Source: Saccharopolyspora erythraea NRRL 2338
Lineage (GTDB): Bacteria > Actinomycetota > Actinomycetes > Mycobacteriales > Pseudonocardiaceae
Assembly: GCF_000062885.1 (NCBI RefSeq)
Contig: NC_009142.1
Coordinates: 8,049,584 to 8,113,583, forward strand
Direction of reading: 5' to 3'
DNA: 64,000 nucleotides
Shown here: positions 1,578-12,759 of the stretch, in pieces
Numbering within the stretch: the first letter of the stretch is position 1
How the letters are laid out: each line of letters opens with the position of its first letter
The notes under the pieces: model-generated
What the model saw: only the letters and a program-made list of their open reading frames with translations
What the model was told of the DNA's origin: nothing
Databases searched by the model: none
Position numbers and translations under genes: made by a program

Positions 1578-1781
1578 GAGCCTGTTTCCGGTCTTTGAAG
1601 CGGCCGCTTGGCCCACTCTCGCAACCGGCACCGCCGCGGGTTCGCAGGCGTTCTCCGGCGAGGACAGCTTTTTCGCGGCGTATGGGTGATACGTGAGAAG
1701 AAGATCCCGGAGCCCCGAGGGCGCCTGAGGTTCCGCCACGCGAGGTGAGCCCGAAGACAGCTCTGAACACGCCATCCCTCC
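1578..1781. repeat. Dispersed structured repeat, copy 1
   Basis: One of three related intergenic sequences (also 3426-3610 and 11858-12045). All share a GAGGACAGC core, a GATCCCGGAG core and TGAGGTTCCGCCA, in the same order. Here the main stem is CAGGCG (1645-1650) with CGCCTG (1722-1727), and CTCCGG (1653-1658) with CCGGAG (1707-1712). A 12-bp palindrome lies at 1598-1609. It fills the gap between the convergent SDR and amidohydrolase genes. This is the most diverged copy. Confidence 0.7.
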
Positions 1782-1817
1782 GGGCGGCCGGTGCGGCCAC
1801 CCGGAGGAGCCGGGCGG

Positions 1818-3158
1818 TCAGCCCCTGACGTGGGCGGCGGCGGTGCGGGCCGCGGCCTGGACGCGCCTGCGGTCGACGCGGGTGGGTTCCCGGTCGTGCA
1901 GGACCTCCTCGCCCGCGACCCAGACGTCGCGCACGCAGCGCGAACCCGCCGCCCACACCACGTTGGCCAGCACCTGGTCGTCCGGGGCGTCCAGGCCGGT
2001 GGCGAACGCCGGGTTGTCGACGTCCAGGTGCACGACGTCGGCCCAGCGGCCGGGCTCCAGCGCGCCGATGTCGTCGCGGTGCATCGCGTCGGCGCCGCCG
2101 CGGGTGGCGGCCAGCAGCGCCGCGTCCGCGCTCAGCGCGGTGGCCTCGCCGGTGACGGTGCGCGCGAACAGGCCCGCGAGCTGGACCTCCTCCCACAGGT
2201 CGAGGTCGTCGTTGGCCGACGGACCGTCGGTTCCCAGGCCGACCGCGACCCCCGCGGCCAGCAGGTCGACCAGCCGCGCCGTGCCGGAGGCGAGCTTGGC
2301 GTTGGAGCCGGGGCAGTGCGCGACCCCGACGCCGCGCCGCGCGAACAGCGCGATGTCGTCGTCGCTGAGGTGCACACCGTGCGCGGCGAGCACCCGCCCG
2401 CCCAGCAGCCCGACCTTCTCCAGCAGCGCGGGCACCGAACCGAACTCCTCGCGCTGGGCGACGTCCTCCTGCAGGGTCTCCGCGACGTGGGTGTGCACCA
2501 GCGCGCCGCGCTGCCGCGCCGCCCCGCCGATGGTCTCCAGCGCCTCCGGCGGCAGCGTGTAGGCCGAGTGCGGGCCGTAGGCGAGCTCGACCCGCTCGCC
2601 GGAGCCGAAGCGCAGCCCGTCGGCGTCGATCCAGCCGCTGATCCCGTCGACCATGCCCTGCCAGGTGCCGAAGGCGCTCAGCGCGGGCGTGTCGATCACG
2701 GCGGAGGCCAGCACCACCCGCGAGCCGACGGCGAGCACGCCCTCGACGACCGACTCACCGCCGAAGTACATCTCCGCGCTGGTGGTCACGCCCGCGCGCA
2801 GCATCTCCACGCAGCCCAGCTCCATGCCCGCCCGGATGTCGGCGGGCCGCAGCCGCGACTCGGCGGGCCAGATCACGTCCTGCAGCCACGGCAGCAGCGG
2901 GAGGTCCGCGCCCATGCCGCGCAGCAGGGTCATCGGGCTGTGGGCGTGGGAGTTGACCAGTCCGGGCAGCAGGATTCCGCTGCACTCCCGGACCAGGGCG
3001 TCCGCGGGCCGAGCCGGTGCGTCGACGCGCGGACCGCAGTAGAGGATTCGACCTTCCGCGTCGACGTCCACCACCGCGTCCCGGATGATCGAGCAGTTCG
3101 GGTCGCAGGGCAGCGCCATCGGCGCGTGGAGGCGTAGTGCGATCGGCATGGCCCGCAT
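1818..3158 (-). CDS. Amidohydrolase, TRZ/ATZ/MtaD-like deaminase
   Basis: Metal-dependent amidohydrolase of 446 aa, resembling 5-methylthioadenosine/S-adenosylhomocysteine deaminases and chlorohydrolases. Metal and catalytic residues are visible: H71 and H73 (NSHAHS), H224 (VHTHVAE), H260 (AAHGVH) and D311 (GLGTDGPSAND). The family releases ammonia from purine-like or triazine-like substrates; the actual substrate is not determined. The start could instead be the ATG at 3149. It begins 10 nt after the stop of a 39-aa membrane ORF, so the two are probably cotranscribed. Downstream lies copy 1 of the structured repeat. Confidence 0.85.
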   Translation of the reverse strand: MRAMPIALRLHAPMALPCDPNCSIIRDAVVDVDAEGRILYCGPRVDAPARPADALVRECSGILLPGLVNSHAHSPMTLLRGMGADLPLLPWLQDVIWPAESRLRPADIRAGMELGCVEMLRAGVTTSAEMYFGGESVVEGVLAVGSRVVLASAVIDTPALSAFGTWQGMVDGISGWIDADGLRFGSGERVELAYGPHSAYTLPPEALETIGGAARQRGALVHTHVAETLQEDVAQREEFGSVPALLEKVGLLGGRVLAAHGVHLSDDDIALFARRGVGVAHCPGSNAKLASGTARLVDLLAAGVAVGLGTDGPSANDDLDLWEEVQLAGLFARTVTGEATALSADAALLAATRGGADAMHRDDIGALEPGRWADVVHLDVDNPAFATGLDAPDDQVLANVVWAAGSRCVRDVWVAGEEVLHDREPTRVDRRRVQAAARTAAAHVRG

Positions 3159-3168
3159 TCTGCCGGAC

Positions 3169-3288
3169 CTACCGGCCGCCGATCGTGCTCATCGAGAGCC
3201 ACATCGCAGCGCCCGCCGCGAGCACGAACGCGACGACGGTGATGAGGACGACGATGTCGGTGACCTTGCCGGGAAGTCGCTGTTCCAT
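3169..3288 (-). CDS. 39-aa single-pass membrane microprotein
   Basis: Small ORF of 39 residues: a charged N-terminus (MEQRLPGK), one hydrophobic helix of about 22 residues (VTDIVVLITVV onward), then a short tail ending TIGGR. GGAGG lies just before the ATG, so the ribosome site is unusually close; a start by leaderless or non-canonical initiation is possible. It lies directly upstream of the amidohydrolase on the same strand. Function unknown. Confidence 0.6.
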   Translation of the reverse strand: MEQRLPGKVTDIVVLITVVAFVLAAGAAMWLSMSTIGGR

Positions 3289-3425
3289 GCCTCCAGCATC
3301 CGCGCCGGGCGGGCCGCCGACCTCGGCTGAAAGGCCCGGTCACCTCGGTCGATCGGCCGCGCGGCCCGGCCTTCCGGCCGACCGCGGGCAGAGCCGCGGG
3401 TCCTGTGGGTCGCCTTGGCGGCCCA

Positions 3426-3610
3426 GGCTCTGTTCCACAAGCGGCGGTGTGGGACTCAGCCTGACCACCCGCGGGTTCTCAGCCGTCTTCTCGCGAGGAC
3501 AGCTTCGACGCCGCGTCCGGACATGCATCAGTCGAAGATCCCGGAGCGAGAAGGCGGCTGAGGTTCCGCCAAGCGCCCCACTGCGCAAGCCACCTCTGAA
3601 ACACGTCCCA
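3426..3610. repeat. Dispersed structured repeat, copy 2
   Basis: The best conserved copy with 11858-12045. Predicted stems: CAGCCG (3480-3485) with CGGCTG (3555-3560), CTTCTCGC (3487-3494) with GCGAGAAG (3546-3553), and the inner CTTCGAC (3503-3509) with GTCGAAG (3531-3537). It ends only a few nucleotides from the stop codon of the response regulator at 3617, so it would form the 3' end of that transcript, read in the minus direction. Confidence 0.75.
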
Positions 3611-3616
3611 GCAGGC

Positions 3617-4279
3617 TCACAGGTCCTCCATGAGGCCGCTGCGCCACGCCCAGGCCGCGGTCTCGACGCGGTTGCGGGCGCCGATCTTGGCCTGCGCGGC
3701 GGCGAGGTGGGTCTTCACCGTGGACAGGGACATGAACAGCTCCCGGCCGATCTCGGTGTTGGTCAGCCCCTTGGCCGTCGCGCGCACGACCTGCAGCTCG
3801 CGCTCGGTGAGCTCCTCCTTCGGCGGCGCGACCGCCGAGCGAACCCTCTCCCGCGACTGCGAGAAGTGCTTGAGCAGCCGGACCGTGATCTGCGGCGAGA
3901 CCAGCGCGTCACCGCGCACCGCGGCCTGGATCGCCTCGATGAGCAGCGCCGGCCCGGCGTCCTTGAGCAGGAAACCGCTGGCGCCGTTGGCCAGCGCGGC
4001 GTCCACGTACTCGTCGAGGTCGAAGGTGGTGACCACGACGACCTTGACCGGGTCGGTCACTCCGGGGCCGGCGAGCCGCTTGGTCGCCTCCAGCCCGTCG
4101 ATGCCGGGCATCCGGATGTCCATCAGGCACACGTCGGGCCGCTTCTCGCGCGCCACGCGAACCGCGTCGACACCGTTGGCGACATCGCCGACGACCTCGA
4201 TGGTCCCCTGGGACTCCAGGATCATCCGGAAACCCGCCCGCACCATCTCCTGATCGTCCGCGATCAGCACCCGGATCAT
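3617..4279 (-). CDS. NarL/LuxR-family response regulator
   Basis: Response regulator of 220 aa. The receiver domain has the acidic pair (ADDQ), phospho-acceptor D54 (LMDIRMP) and the conserved Lys of FLLKD. The C-terminal LuxR helix-turn-helix begins at LTERELQVV and includes STVKTHLAAA. Its ATG overlaps the kinase stop (ATGA), so the pair is translationally coupled. It probably acts on the adjacent ABC exporter operon, where a 16-bp motif is found (6092 and again 10276). No terminator other than repeat copy 2 is seen behind it. Confidence 0.93.
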   Translation of the reverse strand: MIRVLIADDQEMVRAGFRMILESQGTIEVVGDVANGVDAVRVAREKRPDVCLMDIRMPGIDGLEATKRLAGPGVTDPVKVVVVTTFDLDEYVDAALANGASGFLLKDAGPALLIEAIQAAVRGDALVSPQITVRLLKHFSQSRERVRSAVAPPKEELTERELQVVRATAKGLTNTEIGRELFMSLSTVKTHLAAAQAKIGARNRVETAAWAWRSGLMEDL

Positions 4280-6057
4280 GCAGCGCCCTCTTCTTCCTTG
4301 TTCTGCTCGCCCAGCGGGAGCCAGGCCTCGACGCGCCAGCCGACGTGGTCTCCCGGACCGGCGTGGAACCGCCCGCCGAGCAGTTCCACGCGCTCGCGCA
4401 TTCCGACCAGACCGTATCCGCCCGACCCGCCGACCGGGCGGGCGTGCGTGCCGGTGCCGTCGTCGGAGACGCGGGTGTGCAGGTGGGTCTCGTTGGAGGT
4501 GACCGCGACCTCGACGCGGGAGACGTCGAGCGCGTGCTTGCCGCTGTTGGTCAGCGACTCCTGCACGACGCGCAACGCGGACCGCGCCACCTCCAGCGGG
4601 ATCTCGTGCCGGATGTCGACCGACAGGTCGATGCGGGCGGGGTCCGCGCGCTCGGCGCCGTGCCGCTGGGCGCCCTCGACCAGCGCAAGCAGGTCGGCTT
4701 CCAGGTCCGTGGTGGCCTGCTCGGTGGCGCGCGAGGCGCCGGCGGGTTCGGCACCGCGCATGCTGGCCACCAGGCGGCGCATCGCGGTCAGCGCCTCGGT
4801 CCCGCTGTCGGCGATCCGCGCCAGCGCTTCGGTCGCTGCCCGCGGGTTCTTCTCCGACACAAGCTGTGCGGCCTGCGCCTGCACCACGATGCCGGTGACG
4901 TGGTGGGCCACGACGTCGTGCAGCTCGCGGGCCAGCGCCATCCGCTCGGCCTGCTGGGCGCTGCTGACCGCGTTGTGCACGGTCCTGGCACGCTCGTCGT
5001 CGCGGGCCCGGAAGTAGACGCCGGTGCCCACCGACAGCACGAGCAGCAACCCGCCCATGAACATGTAGTTCAGGTAGTCGCCGACCCGGGTCGAGTCGTC
5101 GGAAGGCGTCACGAACAGCGCGAACAAGGCCGCGCCCACCAGCGCGCAGCCATTCCGGACGGCGTTGCGGGGCGGCGCGTAGCGGGTGCTGAAGGCCAGC
5201 AGGATCATCCCCGAAGCGATCGCCGACGGCGAGATCGGACCGAGCAGCCAGGTGTTGGCCCCGGCGCCGGTGATCCACATCGTCAACGCCGTGGTCGCCA
5301 GCGCGACCGCGCCCAGCATCGCCGTCTCCGACGGCCGCAGCGGCGCGAGCACCGCGAGCACGGCCAGCACCGCGCCGCCGAGCGCGACGATCACCGTCGA
5401 CATCACCCCTTGGCCGCTGAGCAGCTCCAGGCACAGGAACGCGAACAGCACGCCCATCACGGGCCACTGCCGGCGCAGCAGGGCCTGAAGCGGGGTGTCG
5501 TCGGAGCGGGGTTTGCGCCCTCGCAGGTACACACCGGTGCCGACGGCGAGGACCAGCTCCACGAACCCGACACCGATCGAGCGCGAGACGTCCTGGCTGG
5601 CGTGGACGTAGGAGGTGCCGGTGCGCGCGAAGAGCGCCGCCAGGCACGACACGACGAGCGCGGTGGTCACCGGGATCGCGTAGCGCTTGCGCCGCAGCCA
5701 GAAGACGTGGACGACCATGGCCAGGCCGGCGATGTTCTCCGTGGGCCGGACGGCCAGCAGGCCGAACGAGTAGGAGTCGGCGTTGAAGTAGTCGATCGCG
5801 ACGGTGCTCGCACCGAGCGCGAAGGCGCCCGCCAGTCCGCAGAACACCGGCCAGCGGCTGGCCAGCACCGCGAGCGCCGCCATCGCGGTGAGCCCGGGGA
5901 GCACGACGGCGTCGCGCTCGGAGCGATCGATCGAGTGCACCATCTCCCCGCACCACGCCAGGCCGATGACCAGCGCGAAGATCCACTGCGCGCGCACGAG
6001 CCCGCACAGCCGGGCCGGCCAGGTCGAAGCGGTGGGGTGCGTGGGGAGCTCGCTCAC
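4276..6057 (-). CDS. Sensor histidine kinase, NarL/DesK type (HisKA_3)
   Basis: Membrane histidine kinase of about 593 aa. The N-terminal 330 residues hold about ten hydrophobic segments with little extracytoplasmic loop, as in kinases that sense membrane or lipid-targeting compounds. The dimerisation helix carries the phospho-His in ARELHDVVAHHV, and the ATPase domain has VVQESLTNSGKHA, DDGTG and GYGLVGMRER. The GTG at 6057 was chosen because TACGGT lies 6 nt upstream (6064-6069), giving a likely leaderless start. It faces the ABC exporter across a short regulatory gap. The many helices fit an intramembrane sensor; the signal is unknown. Confidence 0.9.
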   Translation of the reverse strand: MSELPTHPTASTWPARLCGLVRAQWIFALVIGLAWCGEMVHSIDRSERDAVVLPGLTAMAALAVLASRWPVFCGLAGAFALGASTVAIDYFNADSYSFGLLAVRPTENIAGLAMVVHVFWLRRKRYAIPVTTALVVSCLAALFARTGTSYVHASQDVSRSIGVGFVELVLAVGTGVYLRGRKPRSDDTPLQALLRRQWPVMGVLFAFLCLELLSGQGVMSTVIVALGGAVLAVLAVLAPLRPSETAMLGAVALATTALTMWITGAGANTWLLGPISPSAIASGMILLAFSTRYAPPRNAVRNGCALVGAALFALFVTPSDDSTRVGDYLNYMFMGGLLLVLSVGTGVYFRARDDERARTVHNAVSSAQQAERMALARELHDVVAHHVTGIVVQAQAAQLVSEKNPRAATEALARIADSGTEALTAMRRLVASMRGAEPAGASRATEQATTDLEADLLALVEGAQRHGAERADPARIDLSVDIRHEIPLEVARSALRVVQESLTNSGKHALDVSRVEVAVTSNETHLHTRVSDDGTGTHARPVGGSGGYGLVGMRERVELLGGRFHAGPGDHVGWRVEAWLPLGEQNKEEEGAA

Positions 6058-6091
6058 GGCACGACCGTATAGGGCGCGTGATCGCCACACC

Positions 6092-6107
6092 CTTGGCCGA
6101 TAGGTCC
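6092..6107 (+). promoter_or_regulatory. Candidate regulator site, motif copy 1 (CTTGGCCGATAGGTCC)
   Basis: This 16-mer recurs with one mismatch at 10276-10291, in the same orientation, upstream of the microprotein gene of the same locus. CCGAC and a nearby GAT follow at similar spacing in both. It sits in the gap shared by the kinase and the ABC exporter, and is therefore a good candidate binding site for the response regulator. Confidence 0.5.
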
Positions 6108-6247
6108 GAAACGGCCGACCGATCGGCCGACCGCCCGCGCGCGTGCTCCGGCCCGCTGGTGGAGCCGCCGACCGCCCCTCCGCGGCGAACCTTGTCACCG
6201 ATCGCGCTCGGCGTCGGGCCGCGGCGCAGGGAACCAGGAGGATCACA

Positions 6248-6973
6248 GTGTCAGGTCCAATGGCGTCCGGCCGGCTCGCGGCCGGTCCGGCCACCGGGCG
6301 TCCGGTGCTGACCGGGCGGGGTTTGGTCAAGCGCTACGGCGACCACCGCGCCCTGGCGGGGGTGGACATCGGGATCTCGGCCGGCGAGGTGCTGGCCATC
6401 GTCGGGCCGTCCGGGTCGGGCAAGACGACCCTGCTGCACGTGCTCGCCGGTGTCCTGCGCCCCGACGACGGCGAGGTGGTGCTCGACGGGCACCGCGTCG
6501 ACCGCCTCGGCGAGTCCAAGCGCAGCGAGCTGCGCAGGCGGGAGTTCGGGTTCGTCTTCCAGAACGGCATGCTCGTCGCCGAGCTCACCGCCGAGGAGAA
6601 CACCGCGCTGCCGCTGCTGCTGGCGGGCGCGAACCGGCAGCGGGCGATGGCAGGGGCCCGCGAGTGGCTGGGCAGGCTGGGGCTGGCGGGCATGGAGACC
6701 CGGCGTCCCGGCGAGCTCTCCGGCGGTCAGGCGCAGCGCGTGGCCATCGCGCGGGCGCTCGCCCACCAGCCGAAGGTGATCTTCGCCGACGAGCCGACCG
6801 GTGCGCTGGACACGCGCACCGGCGAGGAGACCATGAGCGCGCTGCTGGGCGCGGCGGCCTCGACCGGCGCGGCCGTGGTGGTCGTGACGCACGACCGGGA
6901 CCTGGCCGCCCGCGCGGGCCGCATCGTCGAGATCCGCGACGGCCGCATCGCCGACGGGGTGGTAGCGGCATGA
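6248..6973 (+). CDS. ABC transporter ATP-binding protein, MacB/LolD type
   Basis: ATPase of 241 aa. Walker A is GPSGSGKTT (53-61), the Q-loop is FVFQNG, the signature is LSGGQAQR and Walker B is VIFADEP, followed by VVVVTHD. The GTG start follows a strong AGGAGG at 6237-6242. Its stop overlaps the permease ATG (ATGA). Together they form an exporter of the MacB/FtsX class, a class linked in Gram-positive bacteria to peptide antibiotic or cell-envelope stress. Control by the divergent two-component system is inferred from position and the motif at 6092. Confidence 0.92.
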   Translation: MSGPMASGRLAAGPATGRPVLTGRGLVKRYGDHRALAGVDIGISAGEVLAIVGPSGSGKTTLLHVLAGVLRPDDGEVVLDGHRVDRLGESKRSELRRREFGFVFQNGMLVAELTAEENTALPLLLAGANRQRAMAGAREWLGRLGLAGMETRRPGELSGGQAQRVAIARALAHQPKVIFADEPTGALDTRTGEETMSALLGAAASTGAAVVVVTHDRDLAARAGRIVEIRDGRIADGVVAA

Positions 6974-9198
6974 ATCCCGTGCAGTTGGCGCTGCGCGTTC
7001 TGCGGGGCGACTCCCGCTCCCGGCTGTCGGCGGTCCTCACGGCGCTGGGCGTCGCGGTCGGCACCGCGCTGGTCGTGCTGCTTTCGAGCCTGCCCGGCGC
7101 CGTCGACGCCCGCGGGGAGCGCTCGCAGTGGCAGTACTCCGAGCACGCCGAGCCCACCGGGACCGCGCTGTCGAGCGCGGACTTCGTGCGGGGCGAGCAG
7201 ATCACCCGGCTCGACGTCTCCGGAGACCCGCGAGTTCCGGCGGACGCGCCGCGCCTTCCCGCGCCGGGGCAGGTCCTGCTCTCGCCGCGCCTGGCCGAGC
7301 TGACCAGGACGATGCCGCCGGGCGAGCTCGCCGACCGCTTCCCCGGTGAGGTCGCCGGCACGATCGGCCCCGAGCACCTGCGCTACCCGGAACAGCTCGT
7401 CGCGGTGGTCGCGCACCCGCCGGGCGCGCTGGACGCGACCGCCGCCGGCCACGAGGGCGGCTGGGCCGCCGGGCAGGCCGGCACGCAGGACTTCCTGCTG
7501 AAGTTCCTGGCGTGGGTCGGGATCGCGCTGCTGGCGGCGCCGAGCCTGGTGCTGGTCGCCTCGGCGTCGCGGCTGACGGCCGCCCGGCGCGAACGGCGCC
7601 TGGCCGCACTGCGGCTAGCCGGTGCGACGCCGGGCCAGGTCGTGGCCACCGTCGCCGCCGAGACCGGGTTCGCCGCCGTGGCGGGCACCGCGGGCGGGCT
7701 GCTGCTCGGCTGGCCGCTGCGGATGCTCGTGATGCACGTGCCGTGGGGCGGCGGCACCTGGCTCGCCTCGGACTTCACGCCGTCGTCGGCCACCGTCCTC
7801 GGCGTGGCCGCCGGGATTCCCGCGCTGGTCGTGCTCGCGGCGGTGCTCGGACTCCGCCGGGTGGTGCGCGCACCGGTCGGGGCGGCGATGGAGCACTCGA
7901 AGAAGGCGCCGAAGGCGTGGCGGCTGGTGGCCATCGCCGCGGCGGCCGCGTTCTTCGTCTTCGGTCTCGCGTTCGCGCAGCAGACCGGCAACATCGCCGT
8001 GCTGCTCGCCTCGCTCGTGGTCATCGTCCTGTCGGCGTCGGTCGTCGGACCGTGGCTGACCGCCGTGCTGGGGACGCTGTTCTCGAAGCTGTGGCGGCGG
8101 CCGTCGACGCTGCTGGCCGGACGCCGGCTGCGCAACGACCCGAAGGCCGCCTACCGCTCGGCGTCGGGCGTCGTGCTCGCCGTGTTCGTCGGCTCGATGG
8201 CGCTGACGCTGCTGCCCGGCTTCGAGTCGCAGGCCGGCGGCGGCCGGTCGTTCAAGGACTCCGTGCTGTACCTGAACGTGCCCGCCGCCCAGGCCGCCGA
8301 GCAGCGGCGACTCATCGCCGAACAGCTCGCGCGCGGCGGCACTGAGGCGACGGTGGCCACGGCAGGCCGGGTCGTCGTGGAGACGCCCGGGAACTCGTAC
8401 TCCGGCCTGGTCATCGGCTGCGCCGAAGCGGCCGAGGTGACCCGCATGGCCGTGGGGGCGTGCGCCGGTCCGCCGAGCGTGCGCGCCGATCCGGCGCTGA
8501 ACCTGCAGGCGGTCGGGCTGCGGGTGGTGCCCACCGGCGGCTACGGCGAGTCGAACGGCTCGGAAGGCGGAGTGCCGGTGCCGCCCGGCACTCCGGTGCG
8601 CCCGCTCGGGGGTCAGGACCCCGATCTCGTCGACTCGGTGCTGGTCGACCCGAGCCTGGTGCCCGGCGTGCTGGCCACCGGGGAGACCACGGTCGCGGTC
8701 GCTCCGCGCAACGACGCCGACCGCGAGGAGGTGCGCACCGCGATGGCGCTGGCCGCACCCGGTGCCGTCGTCCAGAGCCGCGAGCTTGTGCTGGCCGATC
8801 AGCAGACGATCCTCGGCGACCTGCGCCGGATCACCGCGATCGGCCTGGTCATCGCGTCCGTGCTGGCGGGGTGCAGTGCCGCGATCACGGCCGCCTCGTC
8901 GGTGGTCGACCGTCGCAGGACCTTCGGCGCGCTGATCGCTGCCGGTACGCCCCGGCGGGTGCTGGCGCGGGCGCTGCGCACCGAGGCCGCGCTGCCCGCG
9001 CTGGTGGCGACGCTCGGTGCGGGTGCCGGTGGTGTCGGGGTCGGTTACGGCCTGCTGAGCCTGTTCAAGATCGACGGGGCGCTAAGTCCCTGGGTGTTCG
9101 CGCCGGTCGCGCTGGGCGTACTGGTCGCGGTCCTGGCGGCGTCGGCGAGCGGCCCGATGCTGCGCCGGGTCGCTTCCGAGCCGTTCGCGGAGGAGTGA
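6970..9198 (+). CDS. FtsX-like ABC transporter permease
   Basis: Permease of 742 aa with two FtsX-like units. The first membrane helix is followed by an extracytoplasmic region, then a three-helix block around residues 180-300, a second N-terminal helix pair after EHSKKAPKAWR, a large extracellular domain and a C-terminal three-helix block. This duplicated 8-10 helix form is common in actinobacterial exporters. It overlaps the ATPase stop and is followed after 3 nt by the DUF418 gene. The substrate is unknown; a lantibiotic-like peptide or lipid would fit the family. Confidence 0.9.
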   Translation: MNPVQLALRVLRGDSRSRLSAVLTALGVAVGTALVVLLSSLPGAVDARGERSQWQYSEHAEPTGTALSSADFVRGEQITRLDVSGDPRVPADAPRLPAPGQVLLSPRLAELTRTMPPGELADRFPGEVAGTIGPEHLRYPEQLVAVVAHPPGALDATAAGHEGGWAAGQAGTQDFLLKFLAWVGIALLAAPSLVLVASASRLTAARRERRLAALRLAGATPGQVVATVAAETGFAAVAGTAGGLLLGWPLRMLVMHVPWGGGTWLASDFTPSSATVLGVAAGIPALVVLAAVLGLRRVVRAPVGAAMEHSKKAPKAWRLVAIAAAAAFFVFGLAFAQQTGNIAVLLASLVVIVLSASVVGPWLTAVLGTLFSKLWRRPSTLLAGRRLRNDPKAAYRSASGVVLAVFVGSMALTLLPGFESQAGGGRSFKDSVLYLNVPAAQAAEQRRLIAEQLARGGTEATVATAGRVVVETPGNSYSGLVIGCAEAAEVTRMAVGACAGPPSVRADPALNLQAVGLRVVPTGGYGESNGSEGGVPVPPGTPVRPLGGQDPDLVDSVLVDPSLVPGVLATGETTVAVAPRNDADREEVRTAMALAAPGAVVQSRELVLADQQTILGDLRRITAIGLVIASVLAGCSAAITAASSVVDRRRTFGALIAAGTPRRVLARALRTEAALPALVATLGAGAGGVGVGYGLLSLFKIDGALSPWVFAPVALGVLVAVLAASASGPMLRRVASEPFAEE

Positions 9199-9201
9199 GC
9201 C

Positions 9202-10203
9202 ATGACGACCCTCGACGTGCGGACACAACGCCTCACCGGCCGGATCCACGATCTCGACGCGCTGCGCGGCTTCGCCCTGTGCGGAATCCTGTTCGTCAAC
9301 ATCCCCTCGATCGCGCACATGGGCTGGGGCCCGGCCATCGGGGTGGCCGACCCGGTGCGGACGGCGCTGAACATGTTCGTGCAGCAGCGCTTCCACCCGA
9401 TCTTCGCCTTCCTGTTCGGCGTCGGGTTCGCGCTGTTTCTCGACCGGGCGGGCGCCCGGGTGGCCCATCCGCGGGTCCTGCTGTTCCGCAGGCTCGCCGT
9501 GCTGGCCCTCATCGGAGTCGGGCACCAGTTCCTGATGCCCGGCGAACCGCTGCTGATCTACGCCGTCGCCGGCATGGTCGTGCTGCTGCCGACCGCGAGG
9601 CTGCCGCGATGGGTTCTGCTGTGGGGCGGGCTCGCGCTGCTCCTGACGGGGCTGATCGCCGCCGACGGCGGTGTCTTCCTGGTACCCGGTCTGCTGGTGC
9701 TCGGCGCGGCGGCGGTGCGCTGCGGACTCGTGGAGACGCTCGACCACCGGACGAGGCAGCTCGGGGTCGTCTTCGGGATTTCGGTCGTGCCGGCCGGGAT
9801 CGGCGTGTGGATCCAGGTGATCTCCAAACAGGAGCCGACGTTCTTCCTGATCTGGGCGACGGCGGGACTCTTCGGCGCGGTCGCCTACGCATCCGGGTTC
9901 CTGCTGCTGTTCCGCACCCGGCTGCGGGGCGCGCTGGCCGCGGTGTTCACCCCGCTCGGCCGGATGGCGCTGACGAACTTCGTGAGCGCCACGCTGCTGA
10001 CGCTGTCGTTCGGGCCGCTGATCGGCCTTGGCGAAGGCTCCATCCGGTACGACCGGATGCTGTTGTTCGCGATCGGCGTCCTGGCCGCCCAATGGGCCTT
10101 CTCGCGCTGGTGGCTGCGCCGGTTCGGCCACGGGCCGCTGGAGTGGCTCTGGCGCTGCGCCACCTGGTGGCGGCTGGTCCCGTTGCGCCGATCGGTTCGC
10201 TGA
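9202..10203 (+). CDS. DUF418 (YeiB-like) multipass membrane protein
   Basis: Membrane protein of 333 aa with about ten helices. The start IHDLDALRGFALCGILFVN and the C-terminal part GRMALTNFVSATLL are typical of DUF418 proteins, which resemble acyltransferase-3-like membrane folds. No enzyme activity is established for the family. It starts 3 nt after the permease stop, so it belongs to the exporter operon. Its presence suggests the locus also changes or protects an envelope component. Confidence 0.85.
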   Translation: MTTLDVRTQRLTGRIHDLDALRGFALCGILFVNIPSIAHMGWGPAIGVADPVRTALNMFVQQRFHPIFAFLFGVGFALFLDRAGARVAHPRVLLFRRLAVLALIGVGHQFLMPGEPLLIYAVAGMVVLLPTARLPRWVLLWGGLALLLTGLIAADGGVFLVPGLLVLGAAAVRCGLVETLDHRTRQLGVVFGISVVPAGIGVWIQVISKQEPTFFLIWATAGLFGAVAYASGFLLLFRTRLRGALAAVFTPLGRMALTNFVSATLLTLSFGPLIGLGEGSIRYDRMLLFAIGVLAAQWAFSRWWLRRFGHGPLEWLWRCATWWRLVPLRRSVR

Positions 10204-10223
10204 ACCGCCCGCACGTCACCCGT

Positions 10224-10255
10224 CCGGCCGGTCCGGTCACTCCGAGACCGGCCGG
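10224..10255 (+). terminator. Hairpin after the DUF418 gene
   Basis: Perfect 9-bp arms CCGGCCGGT (10224-10232) and ACCGGCCGG (10247-10255). No T-run follows, so it may be a weak terminator or attenuator between the operon and the microprotein gene. Confidence 0.5.
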
Positions 10256-10275
10256 AGGGCCGGGGCCACCAGCCA

Positions 10276-10291
10276 CTTGGCCGATACGTCC
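10276..10291 (+). promoter_or_regulatory. Candidate regulator site, motif copy 2 (CTTGGCCGATACGTCC)
   Basis: Matches the site at 6092-6107 in 15 of 16 positions and in the same orientation. It lies about 60 nt upstream of the 38-aa peptide gene, so that gene probably has its own promoter in the same regulon as the ABC exporter. Confidence 0.5.
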
Positions 10292-10352
10292 AGCGCCTTC
10301 CGACAGCGATTCTGAGTACCGGAAAACGCAAGACCACCAGGAGGTTCACGAA

Positions 10353-10469
10353 ATGTTCACCACTCTGCTGACGGTCGCGGGCACCGTGCTCGCGGTGGGT
10401 GTGCTGCTGCTGATGGCGGCCAGCTCGGTACTACCCGACCTCTCGGAGTCGTCCCGAGCCCGGCACTGA
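10353..10469 (+). CDS. 38-aa membrane microprotein of the ABC/two-component locus
   Basis: Small ORF with a strong ribosome site (CAGGAGG, 9 nt before the ATG). The product has one hydrophobic helix (LLTVAGTVLAVGVLLLMAA) and a polar tail rich in Ser, Arg and His. It lies downstream of a copy of the motif shared with the exporter operon. No family is recognised. Possible roles are a small subunit or regulator of the exporter or kinase, or a stress peptide. Confidence 0.65.
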   Translation: MFTTLLTVAGTVLAVGVLLLMAASSVLPDLSESSRARH

Positions 10470-10548
10470 AGGGGCCGGACGAGGAAGAGTTGATCCGAAC
10501 CATGTCCAGCACCGCGTTCCAGACGGGCGCCCGGCCGGAGTCCGGCCG

Positions 10549-11691
10549 TCAGCCCGGTTCGCCGGTGGCCCGGGCGGTCGCCGTCCGGGCCACCAGCGGG
10601 AAGCACGCCGGTGCTCCCTTCCTGGCCCGCCTGTCGGCTTCCCCGCCCGCGACGAACGCGGGCCGCTCGGTGCCCTCCTCGGGTGCCGTGCGCAGCCACG
10701 CCAGCCGGTGCAGCGTCTCGCTGTGGTGGTCGGTGATGGTGACCCGGGCGGAGTCGAACGAGTACAGCACCGCCCGGTTGATCTCGACGATGGCCCGGTC
10801 CCGCCACAGCGTCCGCTCCGAGGTCGTGTCCAGGCCGATCCGGTCCGCCACCTCGCGGATGAACCCGTAGGCCATCTCGTCGGCCAGAGCGCGGGTGCCG
10901 ATCTCGGTCCCGACGAACCACGTGTTGAACGGCGCGGCCGGGTAGGTGATCCCGCCGATGAGCAGCCGCATGTTGCTGACCAGCGGAACGCTGTGCCAGC
11001 GCAGCCCCAGCTTGTAGAACCACGGCAGGTCCGGGTGCTCCAGCGGCACCTCCTGCACCAGGTCCCTGGGGACGGTGAAGGTCCTCGGCCCCTCGTGGGC
11101 GGTCTCCACGACGAGCGGCAGGTGGTCGAAGCGCCCGCGGGTCTTCGGCGGCCGCCAGCCCAGCCGCTGCGCGGCGGCGGTGAAGCCGACGTAGCGGGCG
11201 TCGCCGAGCACCTCCCCGCCCGGACCCGCGTAGCCGGCGTAGCGCACCACCTGCTCGTTCCAGATGCGCGGACCCGGCTCGTGCGGGGTATCCGGGGCGA
11301 AGACGCTGATCAGCGGCTGGATGCGACCGGCGTTGGTGGCCAGCCGCAGGTGCTCGAAGCACTCCTTGGCCACCGTGGTGGCGTTGCGCAGCCCGCGCAG
11401 GTCGCGCACGAGCAGCCGCCGCCAGGGAACGCCGCTGGTGCACCACCCGCTGTCGCGCAGCGCGACGCGGGCGCCGTAGGCCAGTTCCTCCGGGGTGTGC
11501 CGGTAGGTACCGGTCCTGGCGATCTCGGCGCGGACCTCGGCCAGCCGCGGGTCGAGCTCCCCGGCCTCCGGGTGGGCGTCGTGGAACGCTCGCAGGAACT
11601 TCTCGGCCGCCGCGACGTCGGTCGCCGCCGAACCGGGACCTGCGGGAGCGTTCTGCTGAGCCGGGGTTGCATCGCCGCGAATAGCCGTCAC
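10549..11691 (-). CDS. nos: Bacterial nitric oxide synthase, oxygenase domain, unusual C-terminus
   Basis: The protein (380 aa) aligns by eye with bacterial NOS oxygenases. It has the proposed heme-thiolate Cys84 (GWCTSGVPW), ATNAGRIQPLISVF, IWNEQVVRYAGY, RFDHLPLVV, and GGITYPAAPFNTWFVGTEIGTRALADE with the substrate glutamate E263, then LWRDRAIVEINRAVLYSF and TITDHH. The family makes NO from arginine, using electrons from cellular reductases. After TDHH, the usual DWxWxxPP region that helps bind substrate and pterin is replaced by an Arg/Ala-rich tail ending at 10549. No other frame restores it. The GTG start has TATTTT 8 nt upstream. The product may be inactive or modified. Confidence 0.8.
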   Translation of the reverse strand: MTAIRGDATPAQQNAPAGPGSAATDVAAAEKFLRAFHDAHPEAGELDPRLAEVRAEIARTGTYRHTPEELAYGARVALRDSGWCTSGVPWRRLLVRDLRGLRNATTVAKECFEHLRLATNAGRIQPLISVFAPDTPHEPGPRIWNEQVVRYAGYAGPGGEVLGDARYVGFTAAAQRLGWRPPKTRGRFDHLPLVVETAHEGPRTFTVPRDLVQEVPLEHPDLPWFYKLGLRWHSVPLVSNMRLLIGGITYPAAPFNTWFVGTEIGTRALADEMAYGFIREVADRIGLDTTSERTLWRDRAIVEINRAVLYSFDSARVTITDHHSETLHRLAWLRTAPEEGTERPAFVAGGEADRRARKGAPACFPLVARTATARATGEPG

Positions 11692-11699
11692 GGACCCGT

Positions 11700-11705
11700 A
11701 AAATA
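11700..11705 (-). promoter_or_regulatory. -10-like TATTTT before the NOS gene
   Basis: On the minus strand TATTTT lies 8 nt before the GTG start at 11691, without a ribosome site, suggesting a leaderless transcript. Confidence 0.4.
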
Positions 11706-11857
11706 GTCTCGATCAACGTTCACGCGGCACTCTCGCACAGCCAGTCTTTGTTGTGAACTTTCGCCACCTGATCCGGTGGTCTCCCAACCCACTGTGGTGT
11801 GCATCGGCGCGGCCACGCCACCTCTTGATCGTCCGATCGGGTGAGGAAATCCGGCCA

Positions 11858-12045
11858 GGGCTGTTTTACAAGCGGCGTGAGCCGCTTGCGGTGCGGGACT
11901 CAGCCGGCGGTTCTCAGAAGCCCTTCTCGCGAGGACAGCGCCGACGTGGTGAGTCGGGCATTCATGATGTCGGCGATCCCGGAGCGAGAAGGCTTCTGAG
12001 GTTCCGCCACCCACACCGCCGCGCGAACCACTTCTGAAACATCCC
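11858..12045. repeat. Dispersed structured repeat, copy 3
   Basis: Stems: CAAGCGGC (11869-11876) with GCCGCTTG (11881-11888), CAGAAG (11915-11920) with CTTCTG (11993-11998), CTTCTCGC (11923-11930) with GCGAGAAG (11984-11991), and GCCGAC (11940-11945) with GTCGGC (11969-11974). The CAGAAG/CTTCTG and GCCGAC/GTCGGC pairs differ from copy 2 on both arms while pairing is kept. It touches the trmB stop codon. Confidence 0.75.
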
Positions 12046-12759
12046 TCAGATGCGCTCGAAGATCAGGTCGTGGATCACGCGGCCCTCGTCGTGGGCGCGG
12101 TTCTCGAACTTCGTCACCGGCCGCCAGTCCGGACGCGGGGCCCAACCGCCGGGCTCGGCCGCGTAGCGGTTGCGCAGCAGCGGCTGGGCCTGGCAGACCT
12201 CCAGCATCTGCTCGGCGTAGTTCTCCCAGTCGGTCGCCATGTGCAGCACGCCGCCCGGCGCGAGCCGGGAGGTGATCAGCTCGACCGAGGCGTCCTGGAC
12301 CAGCCTGCGCTTGTGGTGGCGCTTCTTCGGCCACGGGTCCGGGAAGTAGATCCGCACCTCCGACAGCGACCCGGGCTCGACGTGGTCGCGCAGCAGGACG
12401 ATCGCGTCGCCGCGCAGCAGCCGCAGGTTGGTCAGCTCCAGCTTCTCGGCCCGCAGCATGAGCTGGGCCAGGCCGGGCTTGTAGACCTCGATGGCCAGGT
12501 AGTTGACCTCGGGCGCGGCGGCCGCGAGCTGCGCGGTGGTCTCGCCCATGCCCGAACCGATCTCCAGCACCACCGGCGCCTGGCGGCCGAACCACGACGT
12601 GGTGTCGAGCGGGCCTTCCGGCAGCGCGGTGACCTCGGCGCCGAAATCCGGCCAGTACTGGTCCCAGGCCCGCTGCTGGCCGCTCGTCATGCGCTCGCCG
12701 CGCTGGACGTAGCTGACGACCGTACGACGAAACGGAACCTGCTGGTCAGAGGCATTCAC
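12046..12759 (-). CDS. trmB: tRNA (guanosine-46-N7)-methyltransferase
   Basis: SAM-dependent RNA methyltransferase that makes m7G46 in the tRNA variable loop. At 237 aa it has the SAM-binding VLEIGSGMGE (64-73), YLAIEVYKPG, the diagnostic IYFPDPWPKKRHHKRRL, and the C-terminal TKFENRA motif. The GTG at 12759 is preferred over an upstream start because similarity begins there; GATACT lies 8 nt before it, so it may be leaderless. In mycobacteria trmB also lies close to pckA, as here. The structured repeat copy 3 forms its 3' flank. Confidence 0.92.
   Translation of the reverse strand: MNASDQQVPFRRTVVSYVQRGERMTSGQQRAWDQYWPDFGAEVTALPEGPLDTTSWFGRQAPVVLEIGSGMGETTAQLAAAAPEVNYLAIEVYKPGLAQLMLRAEKLELTNLRLLRGDAIVLLRDHVEPGSLSEVRIYFPDPWPKKRHHKRRLVQDASVELITSRLAPGGVLHMATDWENYAEQMLEVCQAQPLLRNRYAAEPGGWAPRPDWRPVTKFENRAHDEGRVIHDLIFERI

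Follow-up and report, generated by a model that had tools for sequence, protein, structure and literature searches.

In this work we analyzed a family of short intergenic repeats, three copies of which lie in a 64,000-nucleotide stretch of the Saccharopolyspora erythraea NRRL 2338 chromosome (the window, to whose positions the coordinates of the three copies and their neighboring genes refer). We favor, with a probability of roughly 0.7, the interpretation that these elements of about 185 bp are gene-less miniature inverted-repeat transposable elements (MITEs) of the IS5 family moved in trans, and that one strand of their core functions in folded form, most likely as a transcribed RNA. A sequence-only reading of the window had offered a structured 3' untranslated region, a small RNA or a non-autonomous mobile element as possibilities; the last is well supported by terminal repeats, target-site duplications, element-free sites in a sister genome and an IS5-family element with matching ends. 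The core, of about 115 nt, keeps near-invariant internal loops while its stems are exchanged, and this structure is kept across 12 genera in which, by eye, the arms and ends differ.

Compensated structure of the core

The three repeats were found where the sequence-only reading had placed them: the loop motif GAGGACAGC-N(10-40)-GATCCCGGAG has three exact matches in the window and none in 100 shuffles, and across the genome as a whole there are 18 occurrences of the loop pair GAGGACAGC ... GATCCCGGAG. An unfiltered search of the window with a covariance model (R2) whose training set includes the window copies themselves gave 113.8, 111.6 and 102.1 bits for the structured cores of copy 1 (1625-1741, + strand), copy 2 (3460-3574, +) and copy 3 (11895-12012, +). 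The next-best matches were the reverse strands of copies 3 and 2 (34.6 and 33.1 bits), followed by one of 17.7 bits, and no fourth copy was seen in this search. When each sequence was folded singly and compared with 200 shuffles, copies 2 and 3 gave z values of -5.15 and -6.47, with no shuffle folding as well.

The stem changes on both sides that had been quoted for the window copies are present in the sequence, and a wider alignment places the compensation far beyond both controls. Among 101 aligned copies from 12 genera, the 29 base pairs of the three helices are paired in 95.5% of the cells, compared with 33.5-48.6% when the partners were slid by 1-3 columns; in 23 of the 29 pairs both partners have changed, and not one of 500 shuffles attained any of the five measures. 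Besides, an extension of helix 1 (GCGG/CCGC) holds five more exchanges of C-G to G-C, a nearly invariant triple of G-U, U-U and U-G lies between this extension and helix 1, and hardly any variation is seen in the internal loops GAGGACAG and ATCCCG(G/C)A. Inspection by eye did not support a kink-turn in the internal loop, one of its key positions being G or C. On one strand, G-U or U-G fills 121 cells and A-C or C-A fills 35 in this alignment, which had been fitted to a model accepting G-U and not A-C; the figures are 95 versus 11 in helix 1 and 8 versus 10 in helix 3, and 57 versus 24 when each combination of genus, column and type is counted once.

A single copy that has stayed in place offers a different view of the same structure. 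In one genus (g33), four genomes carry one copy each, which in three of them lies at the same place, directly after one gene that we take to be gatB, and a fifth genome of the genus (G596) has three copies. In windows of 40 columns, pairwise identity is 0.72-0.97 in the element and 0.80-0.97 at the end of gatB, versus 0.15-0.57 in the adjoining intergenic DNA, and the differences within helix 1 of this copy are mostly compensated, as judged by eye. For this one locus in three species, the pattern speaks for a fold kept by selection in the absence of amplification. The proposal that the structure is under selection is thus supported by the covariation, the G-U over A-C asymmetry and the conserved single copy at gatB.

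Folded as RNA, the motif strand is more stable than its complement in 91 of the 101 copies, and folded as DNA in 75, with a mean energy gap between the strands of 6.7 kcal/mol and 1.4 kcal/mol, respectively. These values bear on an alternative that we consider unlikely, although it survives best: that the core acts as single-stranded DNA or as a cruciform, its hairpin being recognized, in the manner of attC sites or IS200/IS605 ends, at the replication fork or when the element transposes. Folding of the attC kind is a precedent, the copies are mobile and in some genomes oriented with respect to the fork (see below), and the preference of the better-folding strand extends to DNA. However, the gap is far smaller as DNA; in the genomes with an orientation bias, the better strand is the leading-strand template and not the more exposed lagging-strand template; and the gatB copy is conserved without amplification. 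A cruciform, for its part, requires both strands, and under it G-U should be no commoner than A-C. We think that a folded RNA of the motif strand is the most likely form, with folded single-stranded DNA in second place.

Distribution, ends and a probable IS5-family partner

Further homologues were sought with covariance models. A first model, trained on 16 copies, found 47 copies in the S. erythraea genome (G000; E<=1.8e-8) and 38 in a sister genome of the same genus (G001; E<=8e-10), of which 37 were analyzed, the copy at 104646 being left out. The copies are dispersed and carry no transposase gene. With this model, carriers amount to 31 of 120 genomes and 12 of 46 genera of the taxonomic family. 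A second model, trained on 101 copies, detected 32 carriers among 397 genomes of the order, every one in the same family, and in a sample of 296 genomes of the class our own genome was the sole carrier; no carrier outside the family appeared among the genomes listed by these order and class scans, whose strict filters may have missed weak matches. Seven carriers searched more deeply gave from 7 to at least 150 matches each, four of them 110 or more. By the record titles of the loci read, the carriers include Saccharopolyspora, Amycolatopsis, Halopolyspora, Actinopolyspora, Saccharomonospora and Sciscionella.

A scan of a wider collection matched at least 80 loci, and 24 of 80 listed loci were inspected. 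The full core is present in all 13 loci from the family. The scan also matched Pseudomonas, Planctomycetota, alphaproteobacteria and others, and the 11 inspected loci from outside the family lack the flanking stems and were rejected as chance matches; the sole viral-contig match has no flanking stems either, and the Pseudomonas matches among those inspected are one coding sequence, presumably secA-like. A blastn search of plasmids and phages with copy 2 gave no match. At the gathering score, Rfam 15 had no match in the window or in nine loci from other genomes, so that a known RNA family was rejected; the best match of copy 2 below threshold was an unrelated microRNA family (15.8 bits). No description of this repeat family was found in the openly accessible literature.

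Some loci stand apart. Two genomes, G667 (L376) and G722 (L379), have one high-scoring copy each while their listed congeners have none, which suggests horizontal arrival. Loci L377 and L380, from two genera, each have a copy between two genes that we take to be benB- and benC-like; the stems of the two copies are quite different, and either an old common insertion or two hits on one stop codon would account for them. At L244 (G013), two oppositely oriented copies lie within about 320 bases of each other, with agreeing loops and quite different helix 1 sequences.

By eye, the terminal inverted repeats are imperfect and about 10-14 nt long, and two types of ends can be told apart: type A duplicates TNA, usually inside CTNAG, and type B duplicates CTAG. 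In the window, copy 1 (1578-1763, +) is a type A element with the ends GAGCCTGTTTCCGG and CCGAAGACAGCTC, placed between TGA at 1575-1577 and TGA at 1764-1766, a duplication of the TNA type like that of the intact IS5-family element of G013 described below; it also occupies the orthologous place in the sister genome. Copy 2 (3427-3607, +) is of type B, with the ends GCTCTGTTCCAC and CTCTGAAACACGTC, and is flanked on both sides by CCAG, a variant of CTAG (3423-3426 and 3608-3611). Copy 3 (about 11859-12044, +), also of type B, has CCAG on its left (11855-11858), where the site without the element in the sister genome reads CTAG, and a differing CTCAG on its right (12045-12049), which contains the stop codon of a trmB-like gene. 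Both copies 2 and 3 are missing from their orthologous sites in the sister genome.

The compared loci of these two genomes are mostly 93-98% identical, yet just 13 S. erythraea copies had a positional counterpart in the sister genome within the regions fetched. When 22 filled sites were set against their counterparts, 16 of these had no element, five had remnants without the core and one had a different, decayed element; a search of the counterpart regions with the second model showed no cores besides the known copies. The five remnants, counterparts of own 1870148, 7063946 and 7292446 and of g1 8003113 and 114751, keep one or both arms, and the counterpart of g1 7990660 holds a decayed type B element without a core, in the opposite orientation. 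The CTAG duplication of type B is clean in g1_172336 and g1_7683223 and has one altered side in own_7538906 and g1_358628; for type A, TCA is duplicated in own_310164 and TGA in g1_2289595. Duplications are clear in several such pairs; elsewhere they are altered, or the flanks are too diverged to read. Core-less copies with terminal arms and varied break points were seen at L224, L228 and L371, in the five counterpart remnants, and at about 3500-3625 of L205, the latter being of type B and pointing with the fork.

A candidate source of transposase came from insertions within the repeats themselves. Two S. erythraea copies (L007, about 1562-1922; L121, about 1871-2513) bear a decayed insertion with the ends GCCTGTCTTTGATC in the CTGAG of the core, and that of L007 retains a fragment of Pfam DUF4096 (IS4/5; E 9.2e-7, 29.5 bits, below the cutoff of 34.3). 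In the sister genome, the copy at 2833295 is a type A element inside the CTGAG of a core remnant. Since these decayed IS5-type insertions and this type A element sit in the core CTGAG, the element is itself an insertion target. The 14-base end occurs nine times in G013, a genome of a different genus, and at all four loci read there it belongs to an element of about 975 bp with the ends GAGCCTGTCTTTGATC and GAGGCTGTCTTGGATC. Its transposase of 265 amino acids, scanned for domains at one locus (L370), has Pfam DDE_Tnp_1 and DUF4096 and scores 204.8 bits with the IS5 equivalog NF033580 (cutoff 110). TNA is duplicated at three of the four loci, two of these three targets being CTNAG. This element therefore matches type A in ends and duplication. 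The four loci look near-identical, and the insertion sequence (IS) may have been active recently in that genome. Copies of G100 have, by eye, related ends (CTGCCTGTCTC) and TNA duplications, and the ends of other genera were not matched to either type. Because end sequences differ between genera, the ends are more changeable than the core.

Orientation to the fork and adjacency to stop codons

The gene dnaA lies near position 1 in G000, G001, G013, G014 and G100 and elsewhere in G071, G078, G119 and G063, and the terminus was assumed to lie opposite dnaA. On this basis the motif strand is oriented against the fork in 44 of 47 S. erythraea copies (p 2e-10, two-sided binomial here and below) and in 31 of 37 copies of the sister genome (p 4e-5), as well as in 26 of 29 copies of G013 (p 2e-5) and 43 of 57 of G119 (p 2e-4), where the best-scoring listed matches were counted, out of 120 and at least 150, respectively; G071, with few places listed, was left out of the counts. 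By type, the S. erythraea copies divide 25:0 (type A), 11:2 (type B) and 8:1 (unassigned). Leading-strand genes make up 129 of 220 in the sampled regions. Gene direction is not the cause of the bias, because it persists where transcription is symmetric, in the gaps that separate convergent genes (24:2 and 20:4).

We infer that the orientation bias arises at insertion, as has been described for Tn7, IS200/IS605 and a number of IS families (PMC5371812). That it reflects instead a differential loss of oppositely placed copies appears improbable to us. Core deletions do occur, and a decayed copy without its core is oriented with the fork, but 15 of the 16 insertions with an element-free counterpart are already oriented against it. 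Furthermore, two of the six exceptions in the sister genome (1553001 and 1844349) are insertions common with S. erythraea that survive there on the other replichore. A further exception, 4179272, lies near the assumed terminus.

The observation that each window copy lies close to a stop codon held on inspection. Copy 1 begins right after the TGA (1575-1577) of a short-chain dehydrogenase/reductase gene (951-1577, +), so that this stop codon is the duplicated TGA; copy 2 ends 9 nt short of the stop (3617) of a response regulator gene on the - strand, and copy 3 ends 1 nt short of the stop (12046) of the trmB-like methyltransferase gene, also on the - strand. A further gene close beside copy 3, at 10549-11691 (-), encodes a bacterial nitric oxide synthase oxygenase (Pfam NO_synthase, 368 bits). 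With genes predicted by our own GC-frame script, a stop codon adjoins 38 of 47 copies in S. erythraea and 31 of 37 in the sister genome, and for all 47 S. erythraea cores any overlap with a predicted gene stays within 40 nt.

Such an arrangement would fit a terminator or stability hairpin in the 3' untranslated region of the gene whose stop codon it abuts, the more so as the stop codon of a facing gene lies within 60 nt of the core end in 32 of 47 copies and strong hairpins could terminate transcription. We nevertheless hold this option for quite improbable. CTAG, CTGAG and CTCAG each hold a stop codon (TAG or TGA) on one strand, and since the insertion targets contain stop codons, adjacency to them is explained without any function in the 3' untranslated region; insertions inside genes are presumably lost. 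Where the adjacent stop codon is that of the facing gene, the better-folding strand is antisense to that gene, whose transcript would carry the weaker-folding strand (the less stable one as RNA in 91 of 101 copies), and a terminator has no need of conserved internal loops. Very improbable, finally, is a passenger hairpin that is carried along without function, its arms held complementary through template-switch mutation in replication, to which long imperfect palindromes are prone and with which the frequent hairpin deletion in core-less copies would agree: it leaves unexplained the near-invariant loops over 12 genera, the G-U over A-C excess and the contrast between the gatB copy (0.72-0.97) and the DNA next door (0.15-0.57).

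Standing of the interpretation and relation to known systems

Several observations weigh against the interpretation of the repeats as IS5-family MITEs with a functional folded core. First, as to the fold, copy 1 alone folds barely better than shuffles (z -1.63; 11 of 200 as good), the counted structure was drawn from the same, related sequences, and the fitted alignment favors G-U by construction. Second, as to orientation, no significant bias was found in G100 (19 of 32, out of 124 matches), G078 (13 of 18), G014 (6 of 7) and G063 (3 of 8), again among best-scoring listed matches, and a decayed core-less type B copy of S. erythraea near position 7,963,500 of the genome, outside the 47, points with the fork. 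Third, as to the target, that of window copy 1 would be CTGAA and one in G013 is CTGAC, neither being CTNAG, and at one of the four G013 loci the two flanks differ (TGA and TCA). Fourth, as to the transposase, no intact IS with the exact 14-base end was found in S. erythraea, where its five places are all fragments or decayed copies, although an IS with altered ends may be present; no partner turned up for type B, no search with type B ends having been made; and no gene recurs beside the copies among 560 predicted flanking proteins, RAYT not having been itself searched for.

Taken as a whole, the evidence is consistent with a sequence of steps in which a DDE transposase of the IS5 family would move the elements in trans, for type B by likeness only. 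Fork-associated transposition would set their orientation at insertion, and the targets, together with the loss of gene-internal insertions, would leave them beside stop codons. The motif strand would then act in folded, single-stranded form, most likely as an RNA transcript, which may either aid the spread of the element or be co-opted by hosts, as may have happened at gatB in one genus. For S. erythraea, numerous transcripts from intergenic regions and predicted small RNAs have been described (PMC3827479, PMC4008361, PMC3610266). It is tempting to go further, though only tentatively, and to see in the repeats a new class of structured RNA, confined to one family (Pseudonocardiaceae by the named carriers), that spread to more than 100 copies on IS5-type ends varying by genus, and of which some hosts fixed a single functional copy.

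Bacterial MITEs are usually regarded as little more than transposon ends. The present elements resemble those of the IS5 family in being small and gene-less, with terminal inverted repeats, TNA or CTAG duplications and, for type A, the ends of an IS5-family element. However, in an ordinary MITE one would expect mainly the ends to be conserved, whereas here the structure of the core is conserved over 12 genera and the arms and ends vary. Either a functional RNA became mobile or transposition uses a folded single strand, and both possibilities are directly testable in Saccharopolyspora. REP/REPIN sequences, with their RAYT transposase, likewise consist of many short intergenic hairpins per genome, but the present elements have target duplications, and no recurring flanking gene stood out among the 560 predicted proteins.

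ERIC/IRU and CIR are intergenic mobile repeats of 100-200 bp whose transcripts fold into long stem-loops, ERIC having terminal repeats and an orientation-dependent effect on mRNA stability (PMC2229807). The repeats described here are similarly short, intergenic and mobile, with stem-loops, but those families belong to other bacteria, and compensatory exchange of stems around conserved loops does not figure in the portion of that account drawn on here. Lastly, the insertion orientation follows the direction of replication as it does for Tn7 with TnsE, for IS200/IS605 and for IS families with beta-clamp-binding transposases (PMC5371812), although here it concerns an IS5-type MITE in actinobacteria and the bias is not found in every genome. 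The repeats thereby provide a natural data set on replication-coupled insertion of the IS5 type, with biased and unbiased genomes, in which the bias is visible both in polymorphic insertions and in convergent gaps.

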